Assembly: GCF_000020125.1 (NCBI RefSeq)
Contig: NC_010676.1
Location: 3,038,001 to 3,102,000, forward strand
Direction of reading: 5' to 3'
DNA: 64,000 nucleotides
DNA from: Paraburkholderia phytofirmans PsJN
GTDB taxonomy: Bacteria; Pseudomonadota; Gammaproteobacteria; Burkholderiales; Burkholderiaceae
Under the pieces are notes generated by a model, which had not been told where the DNA came from, did not search any database, and saw nothing but the letters and a program-made list of their open reading frames with translations. This document shows, in pieces, positions 40,205 to 44,808 of this stretch (position 1 is its first letter; each line of letters begins with the position of its first letter). Both the position numbers and the translations under genes were made by a program.

Positions 40205-40434
40205 AGGTCATTCAGCGTTTGCTTCCCATGCGGGATTGGCCTATCCAGCAATTGGCGGCCGGAATCAGACTGTGGCAGCCGCCGCACGATTCCAATTTCA
40301 GGCGCCGCGCGGATTGAACCGGAATCAAAGGCCTGAGGATATCGCGGCCGATCAAAAGAAGGTTAACCCGCTAGTTTTCACGACGTCGACTTAGCGAATG
40401 CTTAAGGTTAGGCAAGCGGATCAATTAATTCGAG

Positions 40435-40452
40435 TAGTCACAAGAACGTCAT
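40435..40452 (+). promoter_or_regulatory. Pho-box-like PhoB site upstream of pstS copy 2
   Basis: TAGTCAC (40435-40441) and ACGTCAT (40446-40452) place GTCA(C/T) cores 11 bases apart, the spacing of the two half-sites in a Pho box (consensus CTGTCAT repeats). The site is 60 bases before the pstS ATG. The first two bases of each half-site deviate from consensus. Confidence 0.5.
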
Positions 40453-40511
40453 ATTTCACCCTTAAGTTGCAGCCCATCGAAGGCGCCTGTGTCGCCATGA
40501 GGAGTCTCACC

Positions 40512-41537
40512 ATGAATCTCAAGCAACTTACGCTGGTTGTGTGTGCGCTGTGTGCCAGCGCCGCACACGCCGCCGACATCACCGGTGCGGGCAGCACCTT
40601 CGCCGCGCCGATCTATACGAAATGGGCCGACGCCTATCAGAAGACCGGCGGCGGCAAGGTCAACTATCAGGGCATCGGTTCGTCGGGCGGCATCAAGCAG
40701 ATCATTGCGAAGACCGTGGATTTCGCAGGCTCGGACGCCCCGCTCAAAGACGACGAACTGGCTAAAGACGGGCTATTCCAGTTCCCGACAGTAGTCGGCG
40801 GCGTGGTGCCGGCAATCAACGTGCCGGGTGTGAAGGCTGGCGAACTGGTGCTGTCGGGCGAGGTGCTCGGCAGCATCTATCTCGGCAAGATCAAGAAGTG
40901 GAACGATCCGACGATCGTCGCGCTGAACCCGAAACTCAAGCTGCCGGATACCGATATCGCCGTGGTTCGCCGTGCGGACGGCTCGGGCACCAGCTTTATC
41001 TGGACGAACTATTTGTCCAAGGTGAGCCCGGAGTGGAAGTCGAAGGTGGGCGAAGGCGCCACGGTGAGCTGGCCGACGGGAACCGGCGGCAAGGGTAACG
41101 ACGGCGTGGCCGCTTTCGTGCAGCGTCTGCCGGGCGCGATCGGGTACGTCGAGTGGGCGTATGCGAAGCAGAATCACATGACCTATGCCTCGCTGAAAAA
41201 CGCGGCGGGTACGGTGGTCGCACCGGCAACCGACACCTTCAAGGCAGCGGCAGCGGGCGCGGACTGGTCGAAGTCGTTCTATCAGATTCTGACGAACGAG
41301 CCGGGCAAGAACGCTTGGCCCGTGGTCGGTGCGACATTCGTGCTATTGCACACGACGCAGGACAAAGCTTCGCAAGGTGCCGAAACGCTGAAGTTTTTCG
41401 ATTGGGCGTTCAAGAACGGCGGCAAGGCAGCGGACGATCTCGACTACATTTCGCTGCCGGAATCCGTGACGGCTGAAATCCGCACGCAGTGGAAACAGAA
41501 AGTGAAGGACGCGTCGGGCAAACCGGTCGCACCGTAA
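40512..41537 (+). CDS. pstS: Phosphate-binding protein PstS (copy 2)
   Basis: A 341-residue periplasmic phosphate-binding protein. Signal peptide [20 protein letters not shown], then [38 protein letters not shown] and [12 protein letters not shown] complete the phosphate site. It is closely similar to copy 1 along its whole length, including [25 protein letters not shown] before the ATG at 40512 fixes the start; the frame is open to 40398. A Pho-box-like site upstream implies induction under phosphate limitation. PstCAB is not in the window, although it may follow elsewhere. A strong hairpin ends the unit. Confidence 0.93.
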
Positions 41538-41552
41538 GCGCCGGAGTCATGG

Positions 41553-41580
41553 GGCGCGCGCGGCATGCGCGCGCCTTTCT
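41553..41580 (+). terminator. Intrinsic terminator after pstS copy 2
   Basis: Stem GGCGCGCGC (41553-41561) pairs with GCGCGCGCC (41567-41575) around the loop GGCAT and is followed by TTTCT. It sits 16 bases after the pstS stop. Confidence 0.75.
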
Positions 41581-41607
41581 CCATGCGCGTCTGACCGTTG
41601 GCTTGCG

Positions 41608-44457
41608 TCAGGTCGTGACTTTCGACATCACCGCCGTGGCCGGGTCGTAACGGTAACCCTTCTGCGCGAGCTGGTGCGTCATCGTCGCGGCGATCAGTTT
41701 TTGCTGCGTCTCTCTGGAGACCAATTCGTGATCCGGCTTGAGCCGCTCCAGTTCGGATGAAAGCCGCCGGACAAGCGCCACCTCGCCGGTGCTGCGCGCG
41801 TCGATGAACAAGATTTTTTCGCTTGCGAGACCGAGCCGCTGCTTCAGGTCTTTTGCGTGCGCGACCCACTGTTCGGCCGTCGTGCGAAGCTCGCTCATCG
41901 CCTTTGCATGGGCTTTGGCTTGCGTCGACACTTGACGTTGCAATGCCGCGACCTCCTCGGCATTGTCGTTCTCCTCGGCGCGGGCTGCTAACTGCTGGGC
42001 GCGTTGAGCGTGTTGCGCGATGGCCGCGGTTTGCGCCGTGACGCGCTGCTCCAGTTGCGCGACATGGCGTTCGGCGGCCTCCGCGCGTTCCTTCACGGCG
42101 GATGCATCCTGCGACAGCCGAGCAAGGTTCGCACTGACAAGCGTCTTCGCCTCGGTCACGGCGCTGATCTGCTCCCGCGCCTCCTCGAGTTCATGCGTGA
42201 CGCGCTGCAACTCGCTGAGTTGAGCCGACGCTTCCTCGGCCCGCACCTGCGCTGCCTCGCGCTCCGCGATAAGCACAGCGCGGGCTTGTTTCAACTCAGC
42301 TTCCACTGCGGCGAACTGCGCGTGGTTCTCGCTTGCCTCCGCTTCAGCTGCTTTTGCCTGCGATGAAGCCGCGTTCAACTCCGTCAACAACCGTGCCGCT
42401 TCTTCTTCCCTGGCTTGATAGGCGCTGTTCAACGCTGCAATCTGCTGCTGGGCTTCATCGCGCTCCTCGGTGGCTCGCGCTATTTCATCGTGCCTGGCTG
42501 ATAGTTCTGCGGCCAACTCCGCTCGTGCCTTGCGTTCTTCGTCTAGCAAAGCCGCTGCGGCTTGCTGTTCGGCCGCTTGCGACGCTGCGCGCTGCGCGAG
42601 TTCTTCTACGCGTGCTTCGGCTGCCTGCGCGCGCGACGTTGCCGCGCTCAACTCGTCGGACAGTCGCGTCGCTTCTTCCGACTTCGCCTGATGGGCGTCG
42701 CGCAAAGCGGCGAACTGCTGCCGCGTTTGCTCGTGTTCCTGGGTGACTCGCGTTACATCGTCGTTCCTGGCCGAGACAACCGCCGTCAACTCTTCGCGTG
42801 CTTTGCGTTCTTCTTCCAGCAACGCGTTTGTCGCGGTCAGATTGGCATGATCCGCCGATGCACGCTGTTCGAGTTCTTCTACACGTGTCTCTGCTGCGTG
42901 AGCGCGTGACGTCGCGGTACTCGCTTCCTGCGACCATCGCGTCACTTCTTGCGAGCTCGCCTGATACGCGGCTTCCAACGTCGCCACTTGCTGCAGTGCC
43001 TGGTCGCGCTCCTGAGTGACGCGCGTTATTTCGTCGGTCTTGCTGGAGACAGCCGAGGCCAATTCCTGGCGTGCCTTGCGTTCCTCTTCAAGCGACGCGC
43101 TCGTCGCTTCCAGGCTGGCATCTAGCGACGACACGCGTTGCGTAAGCTCTGCCACGCGCGCCTCTGCCGTTTGCGCGCGAGACGCAGCAGCACTCGCCTC
43201 GTGCGACTTGGCCTCATAGGCGCCGCGCAGCGACGTGATTTCCTCCAGCGCAAGATCACGCTCTTGAGCGACGCGCGTCATCTCATCGTTCGTGACCGAC
43301 ACGATCGACGCCAGTTCTTCGCGCGCCCGGCGTTCCTCTTCGATCGACAACTTCGCGGACTCCAGGTCCTCAACCTGCAGCGACACTTGGCGCGCCAGTT
43401 CTTCCGCGCGCGCCTCAGCGGCTTGCGCACGCGACGAAGCGGCGCTCGCCTCCTGCGACCGTTGCATGGCTTCTTGCGACTTCGCCTCATGAGCGTCGCG
43501 CAAAGCGGCGATTTCCTGCTGGGCGTGATCGCGTTCCTGCGTGACTCGCGTTACTTCATCGTTCTTGCTCGTAACGACCGTCGCCAACGCTTCGCGTGCC
43601 TGGCGTTCTTCTTCAAGCAACGCGTTCGCGGCTTCCAGTTTGGTCTGGTCGTCGGAGGCGCGCTGCACGAATTCCTCGATGCGTGCCTCCGCTGCTTCAG
43701 CACGCGACGTAGCCGCGCTTGCCTCTTGCGCGAATCGCGCCGCCTCTTCTGTCTTCGCCTGACAGGCGTCGCTCAATGTCGCGGATTCGTGCCGCGCCTG
43801 ATCTCGCTCCTGTGTGATCTGGGCGACTTCATCAGTTTTGCCGGTCAGCGCCGTGGCCAACTCTTCACGCGCCAGGCGCTCTTCGTCGAGCGAGGCCTTC
43901 ATGCCTTCCAGTTCGGCGTCTTGCGCGGATGCACGTTGTACCAGTTCGTTCGCGTGAGTTTCAGCCGTTTCGGCGCGACCGGCGGCGCTCGCGCGTTCCG
44001 CCTCAAGGCGCAGGGCAGCACTTTCCGACGCGCTCAGCGCGTCCGTCAGCGCGCTGAGACGATTGCGCCCCGCTTCCATTTCATCGATGCTCTTTTGATA
44101 CTCGGCAAGCGCTTCGTCCCGTTCCGCGAGTGCAGCTTCGAGGTCCTGGCTCACCGCGGCGAGACGTTGATTGAACGCCTTCTCCGCATCGTGTTGGGAC
44201 GCCGCCCAGATCCGATCCGCGGCGCTGATGACCGTTTCGGCGAGGCCTTCCGGCAAGCCGGGCTGGACCTGTGCTTGCGGTGTGTCGGCCTGCCGCGCCT
44301 CGCGCCAGCGTTGCAAGGCTGCGACTATCGCCACCAGCGAACCGCCGCGAACCTCTTTCCAGATTGTCACTGGCGAAACTCTTCTGCCCTCTTCGACCAT
44401 GCGATCGGCGATGGCAGCGATCTGTTCATCGGTGATTGTGTCTGTGTCCGTGGACAT
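41608..44457 (-). CDS. KfrA-like DNA-binding long coiled-coil protein
   Basis: A 949-residue protein. Residues about 5-110 form a KfrA N-terminal DNA-binding domain (DEQIAAIADRMVEEGRRVSPVTIWKEVRGGS...LQRWREARQ). The rest is an uninterrupted Ala/Glu/Arg-rich coiled coil containing six tandem repeats of mostly 91 residues (13 heptads), each opening EER-AREELA and including TRVTQERD and SRAQAAEARVEEL. A final non-repeat segment (about 850-949) ends YRYDPATAVMSKVTT. KfrA proteins of plasmid RK2 (about 300 residues) aid partition and repress themselves; this one is about three times longer. GAGG before the ATG at 44457 favours it over the ATG at 44475. Confidence 0.85.
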   Translation of the reverse strand: MSTDTDTITDEQIAAIADRMVEEGRRVSPVTIWKEVRGGSLVAIVAALQRWREARQADTPQAQVQPGLPEGLAETVISAADRIWAASQHDAEKAFNQRLAAVSQDLEAALAERDEALAEYQKSIDEMEAGRNRLSALTDALSASESAALRLEAERASAAGRAETAETHANELVQRASAQDAELEGMKASLDEERLAREELATALTGKTDEVAQITQERDQARHESATLSDACQAKTEEAARFAQEASAATSRAEAAEARIEEFVQRASDDQTKLEAANALLEEERQAREALATVVTSKNDEVTRVTQERDHAQQEIAALRDAHEAKSQEAMQRSQEASAASSRAQAAEARAEELARQVSLQVEDLESAKLSIEEERRAREELASIVSVTNDEMTRVAQERDLALEEITSLRGAYEAKSHEASAAASRAQTAEARVAELTQRVSSLDASLEATSASLEEERKARQELASAVSSKTDEITRVTQERDQALQQVATLEAAYQASSQEVTRWSQEASTATSRAHAAETRVEELEQRASADHANLTATNALLEEERKAREELTAVVSARNDDVTRVTQEHEQTRQQFAALRDAHQAKSEEATRLSDELSAATSRAQAAEARVEELAQRAASQAAEQQAAAALLDEERKARAELAAELSARHDEIARATEERDEAQQQIAALNSAYQAREEEAARLLTELNAASSQAKAAEAEASENHAQFAAVEAELKQARAVLIAEREAAQVRAEEASAQLSELQRVTHELEEAREQISAVTEAKTLVSANLARLSQDASAVKERAEAAERHVAQLEQRVTAQTAAIAQHAQRAQQLAARAEENDNAEEVAALQRQVSTQAKAHAKAMSELRTTAEQWVAHAKDLKQRLGLASEKILFIDARSTGEVALVRRLSSELERLKPDHELVSRETQQKLIAATMTHQLAQKGYRYDPATAVMSKVTT
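42265..43884 (-). repeat. Six tandem coding repeats, unit about 273 bp
   Basis: Within the KfrA-like gene, five of six units (R1, R2, R4, R5, and R6 approximately) are 91 residues and R3 is 84, exactly one heptad shorter. Boundaries, counted from the ATG at 44475: 198-288, 289-379, 380-463, 464-554, 555-645, 646 to about 737. The repeats have diverged in sequence but keep the register, so expansion is not recent. A partial unit precedes R1. Confidence 0.85.
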
Positions 44458-44808
44458 ATGCGCCTCAAGAATCAATGTAACGGGGCGAAAGGTTAAATTT
44501 TATACGTTACTACGTCTGCGGACGTCCGGCGACGTTCGGGATACAAGCTAAATGACAGCTAACAGCACGCGGACCGCTGATATTAGGGCTCAACGGTCGT
44601 CTCGAATGCGCGGAACAACGGGCCATAAGGCCGCTATATCGCCGCGGATCGCTCGCTTGAAGCAGGTACCCGCGATACCGGTACGAGCGCTTGCCTTGTT
44701 AGCCCGCACCGACGTTGCAACAATGCAGCGGAACCGATCGGAGCGCCCGCCGGCATGGAAATACGAAGGGGCGTCGACATAAAACACCTGATACCGAGGC
44801 ATACGGCA
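44458..44808. other. Intergenic region upstream of the KfrA-like gene
   Basis: About 350 bases of divergent spacer with no convincing gene. The 60 bases nearest the KfrA-like gene contain evenly spaced ACGT boxes, described separately. Confidence 0.5.
44504..44535. promoter_or_regulatory. Four phased ACGT boxes, possible KfrA-type operator
   Basis: ACGT occurs at 44504, 44512, 44522 and 44532, that is 8, 10 and 10 bases apart, between the KfrA-like gene and its presumed promoter. Plasmid KfrA proteins repress their own promoter by binding nearby repeats, so this phased cluster is a plausible autoregulatory site. Confidence 0.3.

Follow-up and report, generated by a model that had tools for sequence, protein, structure and literature searches.

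A giant KfrA-type coiled-coil protein, usually encoded off the main chromosome, is widespread in one genus, very probably Paraburkholderia

The window, a stretch of 64,000 nucleotides at C1:3038001-3102000 of Paraburkholderia phytofirmans PsJN that was analysed as a whole, encodes a giant KfrA-type protein. Within one genus (very probably Paraburkholderia) the gene is widespread and usually present as a single copy, and the protein is an enlarged, lineage-specific relative of KfrA that is usually encoded off the main chromosome. By analogy with the KfrA proteins of plasmids, the best explanation of the whole would be an autorepressing, filament-forming KfrA-type rod that tethers its replicon, a reading that has, in our judgement, an even chance of being right.

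Architecture of the giant KfrA-type protein

The gene lies on the minus strand and runs from 44457 to 41608. An earlier sequence-only reading had given its coordinates and its length of 949 residues correctly, with no strand. One whole-protein match was found in the genome to which it belongs (8.2 Mb, 3 contigs). From the N-terminus, the protein consists of a KfrA_N head, six strong tandem units with a degenerate unit on either side, and a conserved tail. The features, in window coordinates, are as follows.

41608-44457, minus strand: giant KfrA-type gene, 949 aa (ATG start, stop codon included)
44502-44513, minus strand: conserved upstream motif GTAGTAACGTAT, 56 bp before the ATG, a candidate auto-operator or promoter element
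44092-44433, minus strand: KfrA_N DNA-binding head, residues 9-122 (profile match and predicted helices)
43885-44097, minus strand: degenerate unit before R1, residues 121-191 (six-unit profile, 31 bits)
43612-43884, minus strand: repeat R1, residues 192-282, 91 aa (EERxAR anchor and profile)
43339-43611, minus strand: repeat R2, residues 283-373, 91 aa (EERxAR anchor and profile)
43087-43338, minus strand: repeat R3, residues 374-457, 84 aa, one heptad short (EERxAR anchor and profile)
42814-43086, minus strand: repeat R4, residues 458-548, 91 aa (EERxAR anchor and profile)
42541-42813, minus strand: repeat R5, residues 549-639, 91 aa (EERxAR anchor and profile)
42268-42540, minus strand: repeat R6, residues 640-730, 91 aa (EERxAR anchor and profile)
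42013-42264, minus strand: degenerate unit after R6, residues 732-815 (six-unit profile, 26 bits)
42043-44190, minus strand: one uninterrupted heptad register, residues 90-805, about 102 heptads (hydrophobic phase)
41611-42015, minus strand: conserved tail, residues 815-949 (orthologue conservation; predicted long helix and beta-hairpin)

Pfam KfrA_N matched residues 9-122 with an E-value of 1e-14 and 55.6 bits against a cut-off of 26.1, in agreement with the KfrA-type N-terminal head that had been proposed. The AlphaFold model places helices at residues 10-22, 29-35 and 41-57 and a long helix from residue 70 (mean pLDDT 77.3 for the head). Profile and prediction together identify the head as HTH-type. 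Among solved structures, the best candidate relatives of the head were ubiquitin-containing entries at 1e-5, with no stretch passing alone, and these were not believed.

For the last 135 residues the prediction is a helix with a beta-hairpin at its end (mean pLDDT 88.9, pTM 0.39). Foldseek returned no PDB match for the tail at E ≤0.001, and Pfam gave nothing over cut-off for the tail of the window protein. A Pfam search with 24 tail members reached a best E-value of 0.0006, with the families scattered and none over cut-off for the first member, the one whose cut-offs are given, and the tail profile reached only 0.33 against solved structures. No credible Pfam or PDB relative of the tail was found. 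Designed tandem-repeat proteins matched the tail piece at 3e-6; again no stretch passed alone, and the match was set aside.

On the downstream side, a PBP_like_2 (PstS-like) gene at window positions 40398-41537 converges with the giant gene. The divergent neighbour carries a sub-threshold Asp/Glu-racemase match.

A single heptad register runs through six tandem units

The EERxAR anchors, at residues 192, 283, 374, 458, 549 and 640, agree with the earlier description of six repeats behind the head, five of 91 residues and one (R3) of 84, the length of R3 following from the anchor spacing. The length of R6 is the step to the next unit in the six-unit profile; its own profile match ends at residue 729. 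Over residues 121-760, identity at lag 91 is 0.461, compared with a maximum of 0.179 for any lag below 200 in 200 shuffles. The 273-bp unit, for which a dot-plot had been suggested, is also visible in a self-comparison of the DNA (identity 0.577 at lag 273 versus a mean of 0.276). Tandem Repeats Finder reported nothing at the gene, presumably because the DNA copies have diverged.

All 97 of the 42-residue windows computed over residues 90-805 are in phase at 3.5 residues, so the coiled-coil register is kept through the shorter R3, as had been claimed. The heptad power of this stretch is 42.4, the largest value among 500 shuffles being 6.1. Leucine, isoleucine, valine, methionine and phenylalanine make up 49% and 38% of residues at two heptad positions and at most 10% elsewhere.

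Charge periodicity at 6.5 and 9.1 residues (91/14 and 91/10) is strong in the five 91-aa proteins tested (in the window protein over residues 95-805, window positions 42043-44175) and weaker or different in three proteins of other lineages. Rods of myosin and intermediate filaments show charge periods of about 9. Because the two periods are harmonics of 91 and depend on lineage, no claim about assembly is based on them.

Distribution, replicon and neighbourhood

Of the 144 genomes of the genus, the tail profile matched 108; the match is strong in 102 and weak in 6. The gene is evidently dispensable, since the other 36 genomes gave no match and these 6 only a weak one. As a single-sequence query against 100 genomes sampled from the family (25 genera), the last 93 residues found matches in 16, which belong to 5 genera. 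The tail profile found 1 of 369 genomes drawn from the class, namely the window's own, in a sample for which the share of the family is not given.

Among plasmid records, the whole protein matched nine at E ≤1e-5 (eight Caballeronia and one Paraburkholderia, 0.6-1.7 Mb), and it had no match in the phage collection. The head alone, at E-values up to 10, matched 186 plasmid records. The best 30 of these comprise 9 from Caballeronia or Paraburkholderia at 2e-34 to 1e-15 and 21 others, several annotated as KfrA, at 0.09 or weaker. The nearest named relative found is Paraburkholderia sp. BL25I1N1, on which the genus name given to this set of genomes is based.

In genomes of at most 6 contigs with a strong match, the gene lies off the dnaA contig in 31 of 34. 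With the dnaA contig taken as 45% of the genome, the probability of three or fewer of 34 falling on it is 5e-6, a figure that treats as independent genomes that are not. In G205, G215 and G232 the gene is on the dnaA contig, which in G205 and G215 is 6.58 Mb long and perhaps a fused replicon. One of the 31, G223, is odd in carrying the gene on a 6.98-Mb contig without dnaA, and the assemblies are perhaps not all closed. In 7 of 9 genomes checked, the gene shares its contig with a weak-scoring ParB of about 350 aa, of second-chromosome type, and in the other two (G011 and G030) it sits on a further contig with its own ParB; the replicon labels in this check are interpretive.

The giant gene is not beside parAB. 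On the same contig, the parB that accompanies Rep3 and ParA is some 308 kb distant and has a KfrA_N gene of its own close by. On the opposite side, at about 306 kb, there is a second ParB_N frame, 754 aa long. The gene is outside the plasmid stability/partition module that serves as a criterion for KfrA. Such a location of kfrA is typical of IncP and IncU, though not strictly defining. No neighbour family recurred in more than 5 of 25 loci (clusters of ORFs of at least 120 aa, compared without KfrB or KfrC profiles). The set of neighbours around the window gene is common only to BL25I1N1, with a CHAD-domain gene at one other locus, and in general neighbourhoods are shared only with the nearest relative and inside a few subgroups.

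Outside the window, at about 3.384-3.392 Mb of the same contig (L062:4400-11936, G000:C1), an integrase, a KfrA_N gene (401 aa), Rep3, ParB and a ParA-like gene lie together in what is probably the replication origin locus of the contig carrying the giant gene. The 401-aa KfrA_N protein has no significant similarity to the giant protein by pairwise BLASTP.

Orthologues vary in length and mostly keep the coiled-coil phase

The 108 loci that were read come from 106 matching genomes; the other two matching genomes of the 108, G009 and G175, have weak matches and were left out. Head and tail share one open frame in 104 of the loci, and two of the other four are contig ends. Two orthologues are broken: in G021 (L045) head and tail are in different frames, and in G008 (L051) only a tail fragment is in frame.

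Before counting, L083 (apparently the same genome as L034, contig and protein lengths being equal) and the weak-tail loci L060, L061, L158, L159 and L160 were dropped. The latter five encode KfrA_N proteins of 380-482 aa that match the tail profile only weakly, and possibly represent a sister family. G169 carries a weak-tail KfrA_N protein on the dnaA contig and a full orthologue on another.

The 98 orthologues, all of one genus, range from 426 to 1168 aa, with both ends conserved and the middle variable. Their starts were picked by rule, so lengths are perhaps a few residues off, and related genomes and proteins are not independent samples. The KfrA head is kept in 98/98, as the earlier reading required, a result that is partly by construction given that orthologues were selected for head and tail in frame.

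In coiled-coil geometry, one stutter puts a lag at 4 mod 7 and two stutters at 1 mod 7. In the 63 orthologues that reach 600 aa or more, the strongest repeat lag falls at 0 mod 7 for 44 proteins, at 4 for 15 and at 1 for 4. Lags with z of at least 4 number 139, 46, 10 and 1 at 0, 4, 1 and 5 mod 7, respectively, or 25, 14, 5 and 1 when only distinct lags are counted. In the controls, one round of shuffled cores produced 4 such lags in total, and one round of heptad-block shuffles produced 10, all at 0 mod 7. The idea that the repeat length itself is preserved in relatives did not survive, as the 91-aa unit is not genus-wide: lag 91 is significant in 23 of the 63, the others showing lags of 77/70, 130/144, 28/14 and more. 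What is kept across the long orthologues is mostly the coiled-coil phase of the unit length. The 35 proteins below 600 aa break this rule (2 mod 7 in six, 0 in five, 1 in two, and 4, 5 and 6 in one each).

All windows are in phase in 22 of the 54 orthologues with 760 aa or more, in 8 of the 9 between 600 and 759 aa and in 5 of the 35 shorter ones. An unbroken register is frequent among orthologues, not general. A precisely tuned ruler is disfavoured because lengths vary widely and because so few of the longest proteins are fully in phase. The distance from the head anchor to the rod-end anchor was taken in the 48 of 98 proteins with a reliable anchor (33 without an anchor and 17 in which it matched an inner unit were set aside); it is 6 mod 7 in 29, 0 in 13, 3 in 4, and 4 and 5 in one each.

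Length changes by repeat units under purifying selection

Length had been proposed to follow repeat copy number, and the comparison of two close relatives supports this: one gap of 91 aa distinguishes the G258 protein (774 aa) from that of G173 (865 aa), and counts of strong units range from 4 to 7 among the 91-aa proteins examined. The window protein and that of BL25I1N1 differ by a single 38-aa gap in R3, which changes the phase by 4 mod 7. The 949-aa plan with an 84-aa R3 is common to four species. At L038, the five strong units resemble one another (best 0.71-0.76) more than they resemble units of other groups (0.63-0.69), which suggests that they have been homogenised; at L035 and L123 the best unit matches are units of other groups.

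Nine hand-chosen pairs, two of which share a member, gave dN/dS values of 0.035-0.133 for the head, 0.122-0.283 for the rod and 0-0.111 for the tail. Of the three parts, the tail has the smallest ratio in 7 of the 9 pairs; in 8 of them the largest belongs to the rod. In the nine pairs tested, head, rod and tail are all under purifying selection.

A conserved motif upstream of the long orthologues

GTAGTAACGTAT is found with at least 10 of 12 matches, 54-67 bp upstream of the start, in 54 of the 63 long orthologues; three of the others have 8 or 9 matches and six have fewer. The 35 short orthologues score 6 to 8 of 12, as shuffled DNA does. A promoter scan of window positions 41450-44800 found no sigma-70-like site. 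Five proteins of 638-729 aa with lags of 14 and 28 (L043, L046, L126, L128 and L130) are without a recognisable promoter motif, and in these head and promoter may have changed together.

The exact motif has one copy in the 8.2-Mb genome of the window. In a set of 11 genomes there are 7 exact sites, spread over 6 genomes, and six of these sites are at the giant gene; the reversed motif has 3 sites in the set. Near-matches over 15 bases number 135 in ten genomes versus 216 for the reversed-motif control, and G172 alone exceeds its control (15 versus 12). The suggestion that such a protein could organise DNA, understood as acting through many sites, loses ground on these counts, since a single motif copy and the lack of a near-match excess favour single-site autoregulation. 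If it is an operator, the motif would be close to a single-locus site, comparable to the 9-nt repeat of RA3 in its plasmid; it may instead be a promoter element.

Discussion

In the proposed explanation, a parallel dimer would bind its own promoter through its two heads and repress itself as plasmid KfrA does; the binding step is probable. The rod would project from this single DNA site with the beta-hairpin tail at its far end. A coiled coil rises 0.1485 nm per residue, so that a rod of 716 residues would be about 106 nm long. Dimers nucleated at the promoter site would associate along their rods or tails to give filaments, which may tether the replicon or position it, in a role accessory to ParAB. 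With its dN/dS, the lowest in most pairs, the tail would be a contact point. Rod length would set reach or stagger and would be free to vary while the coil stays in step. Extrapolating from plasmid KfrA (PMC7821693, PMC7783346), filament formation appears about evenly poised, and a maintenance role for the carrying replicon is plausible but somewhat more doubtful. A more ambitious version is unlikely: a genus-wide tether of secondary replicons in which one site would nucleate a filament of rods of about 100 nm joined by their tail caps. There, gain or loss of repeats would change length in coiled-coil steps, either whole heptads or heptads with a four-residue stutter added, and reach would differ by lineage with the coil kept in step.

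It is possible, if on the whole doubtful, that the protein is simply a transcription factor under its own control, perhaps a thermosensor of the TlpA kind, whose extra length reflects tolerated slippage drift and serves no filament or segregation role. The coiled coil would then set dimer stability, and temperature-dependent unfolding of KfrA and TlpA is discussed in the relevant part of PMC7821693. A single conserved promoter site with no genome-wide excess suits such a regulator, as do the free changes of unit number and type across the genus and a rod with the highest dN/dS in all but one of the pairs. However, rod values of 0.12-0.28 and a register of 716 residues seem beyond the needs of dimerisation, and the low dN/dS of the tail (7 of 9 pairs) would not be explained by a pure HTH autorepressor.

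A many-site organiser acting along the carrying replicon, like a site-specific nucleoid protein, is improbable. It would make use of the DNA-binding head and of the location off the dnaA contig (31/34), but the only conserved candidate site occurs once in the window genome, and the shortfall of near-matches in ten genomes (135 against 216) speaks against it, provided that the protein binds at this motif. That the gene is a leftover from a plasmid origin of the secondary replicon, without present function, is very improbable. The position mostly off the dnaA contig, the lack of a shared neighbourhood beyond the nearest relative and a few subgroups, the 36 of 144 genomes without a match and the two broken copies would fit decay; strong matches in 102 genomes, purifying selection on all three parts in nine pairs and an intact head-to-tail frame at 104 of 108 loci (two of the other four being contig ends) do not. 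An SMC-like DNA condenser is extremely improbable, as the sub-threshold coiled-coil similarity to SMC models (e.g. 72 bits against a cut-off of 567) is that of heptad sequence, no ABC ATPase domain is among the Pfam matches, and the head is KfrA_N.

The KfrA literature found concerns plasmids and mobile elements; here a KfrA-type protein is strongly matched in 102 of 144 genomes of one genus. The natural length series of 426-1168 aa lets the effect of coiled-coil length in a DNA-anchored rod be tested. Long units at 0, 4 or 1 mod 7 offer a clean case of coiled-coil geometry steering the evolution of tandem repeats. If the autorepressing, filament-forming rod does have a maintenance role, a filament component would be added to the segregation of secondary replicons.

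Comparison with known systems

No paper on KfrA with Paraburkholderia was found in the open-access full-text literature, and open-access papers on KfrA and Burkholderia name no chromosomal giant KfrA in their titles or the openings of their abstracts. KfrA has been described as a marker for plasmids and mobile elements in Acidithiobacillia (in part of PMC10561277). In the sections of PMC7821693 on the family as a whole, 97% of 1020 sequences have an HTH followed by a coiled coil, and the authors' method classes 84% of the coiled coils as deviating from canonical heptads. For the giant rod, a simpler measure, not the same as theirs, finds 716 residues in phase.

The KfrA of R751 (IncP-1 beta, 342 aa) resembles the giant protein in its head (31% identity over 101 columns, E 7e-8) and in its heptad coiled coil (27 of 30 windows in phase). 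It shows no tail similarity in pairwise comparison and is 2.8 times shorter than the 949-residue protein, so that "three times plasmid KfrA" was right in scale and slightly high in value. Moreover, R751 kfrA adjoins parB, parA, kfrB and kfrC, whereas the giant gene does not. According to portions of PMC7821693 and PMC7783346, the KfrA proteins of R751 and RA3 autorepress and polymerise into threads on operator DNA, and RA3 KfrA contacts IncC and KorB, with a reported role in maintenance.

RA3 (IncU) KfrA, compared by description and not by alignment, shares with the giant protein a head and a coiled coil built of repeats. Its coiled coil has four 35-aa repeats and a part, and its operator is a 9-nt repeat that occurs in RA3 only at the promoter of kfrA itself (from the corresponding passages of PMC7783346). 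RA3 thus combines 35-aa units with five 9-nt operator repeats, whereas the giant gene combines 91-aa units with one non-iterated 12-bp motif.

Bacterial SMC arms, whose length is periodic as reported in the portion of PMC5344682 concerned, are like the giant rod in being DNA-acting coiled coils with periodically constrained natural lengths. Unlike SMC, the giant protein has no ATPase that was found, and its length changes by tandem units.
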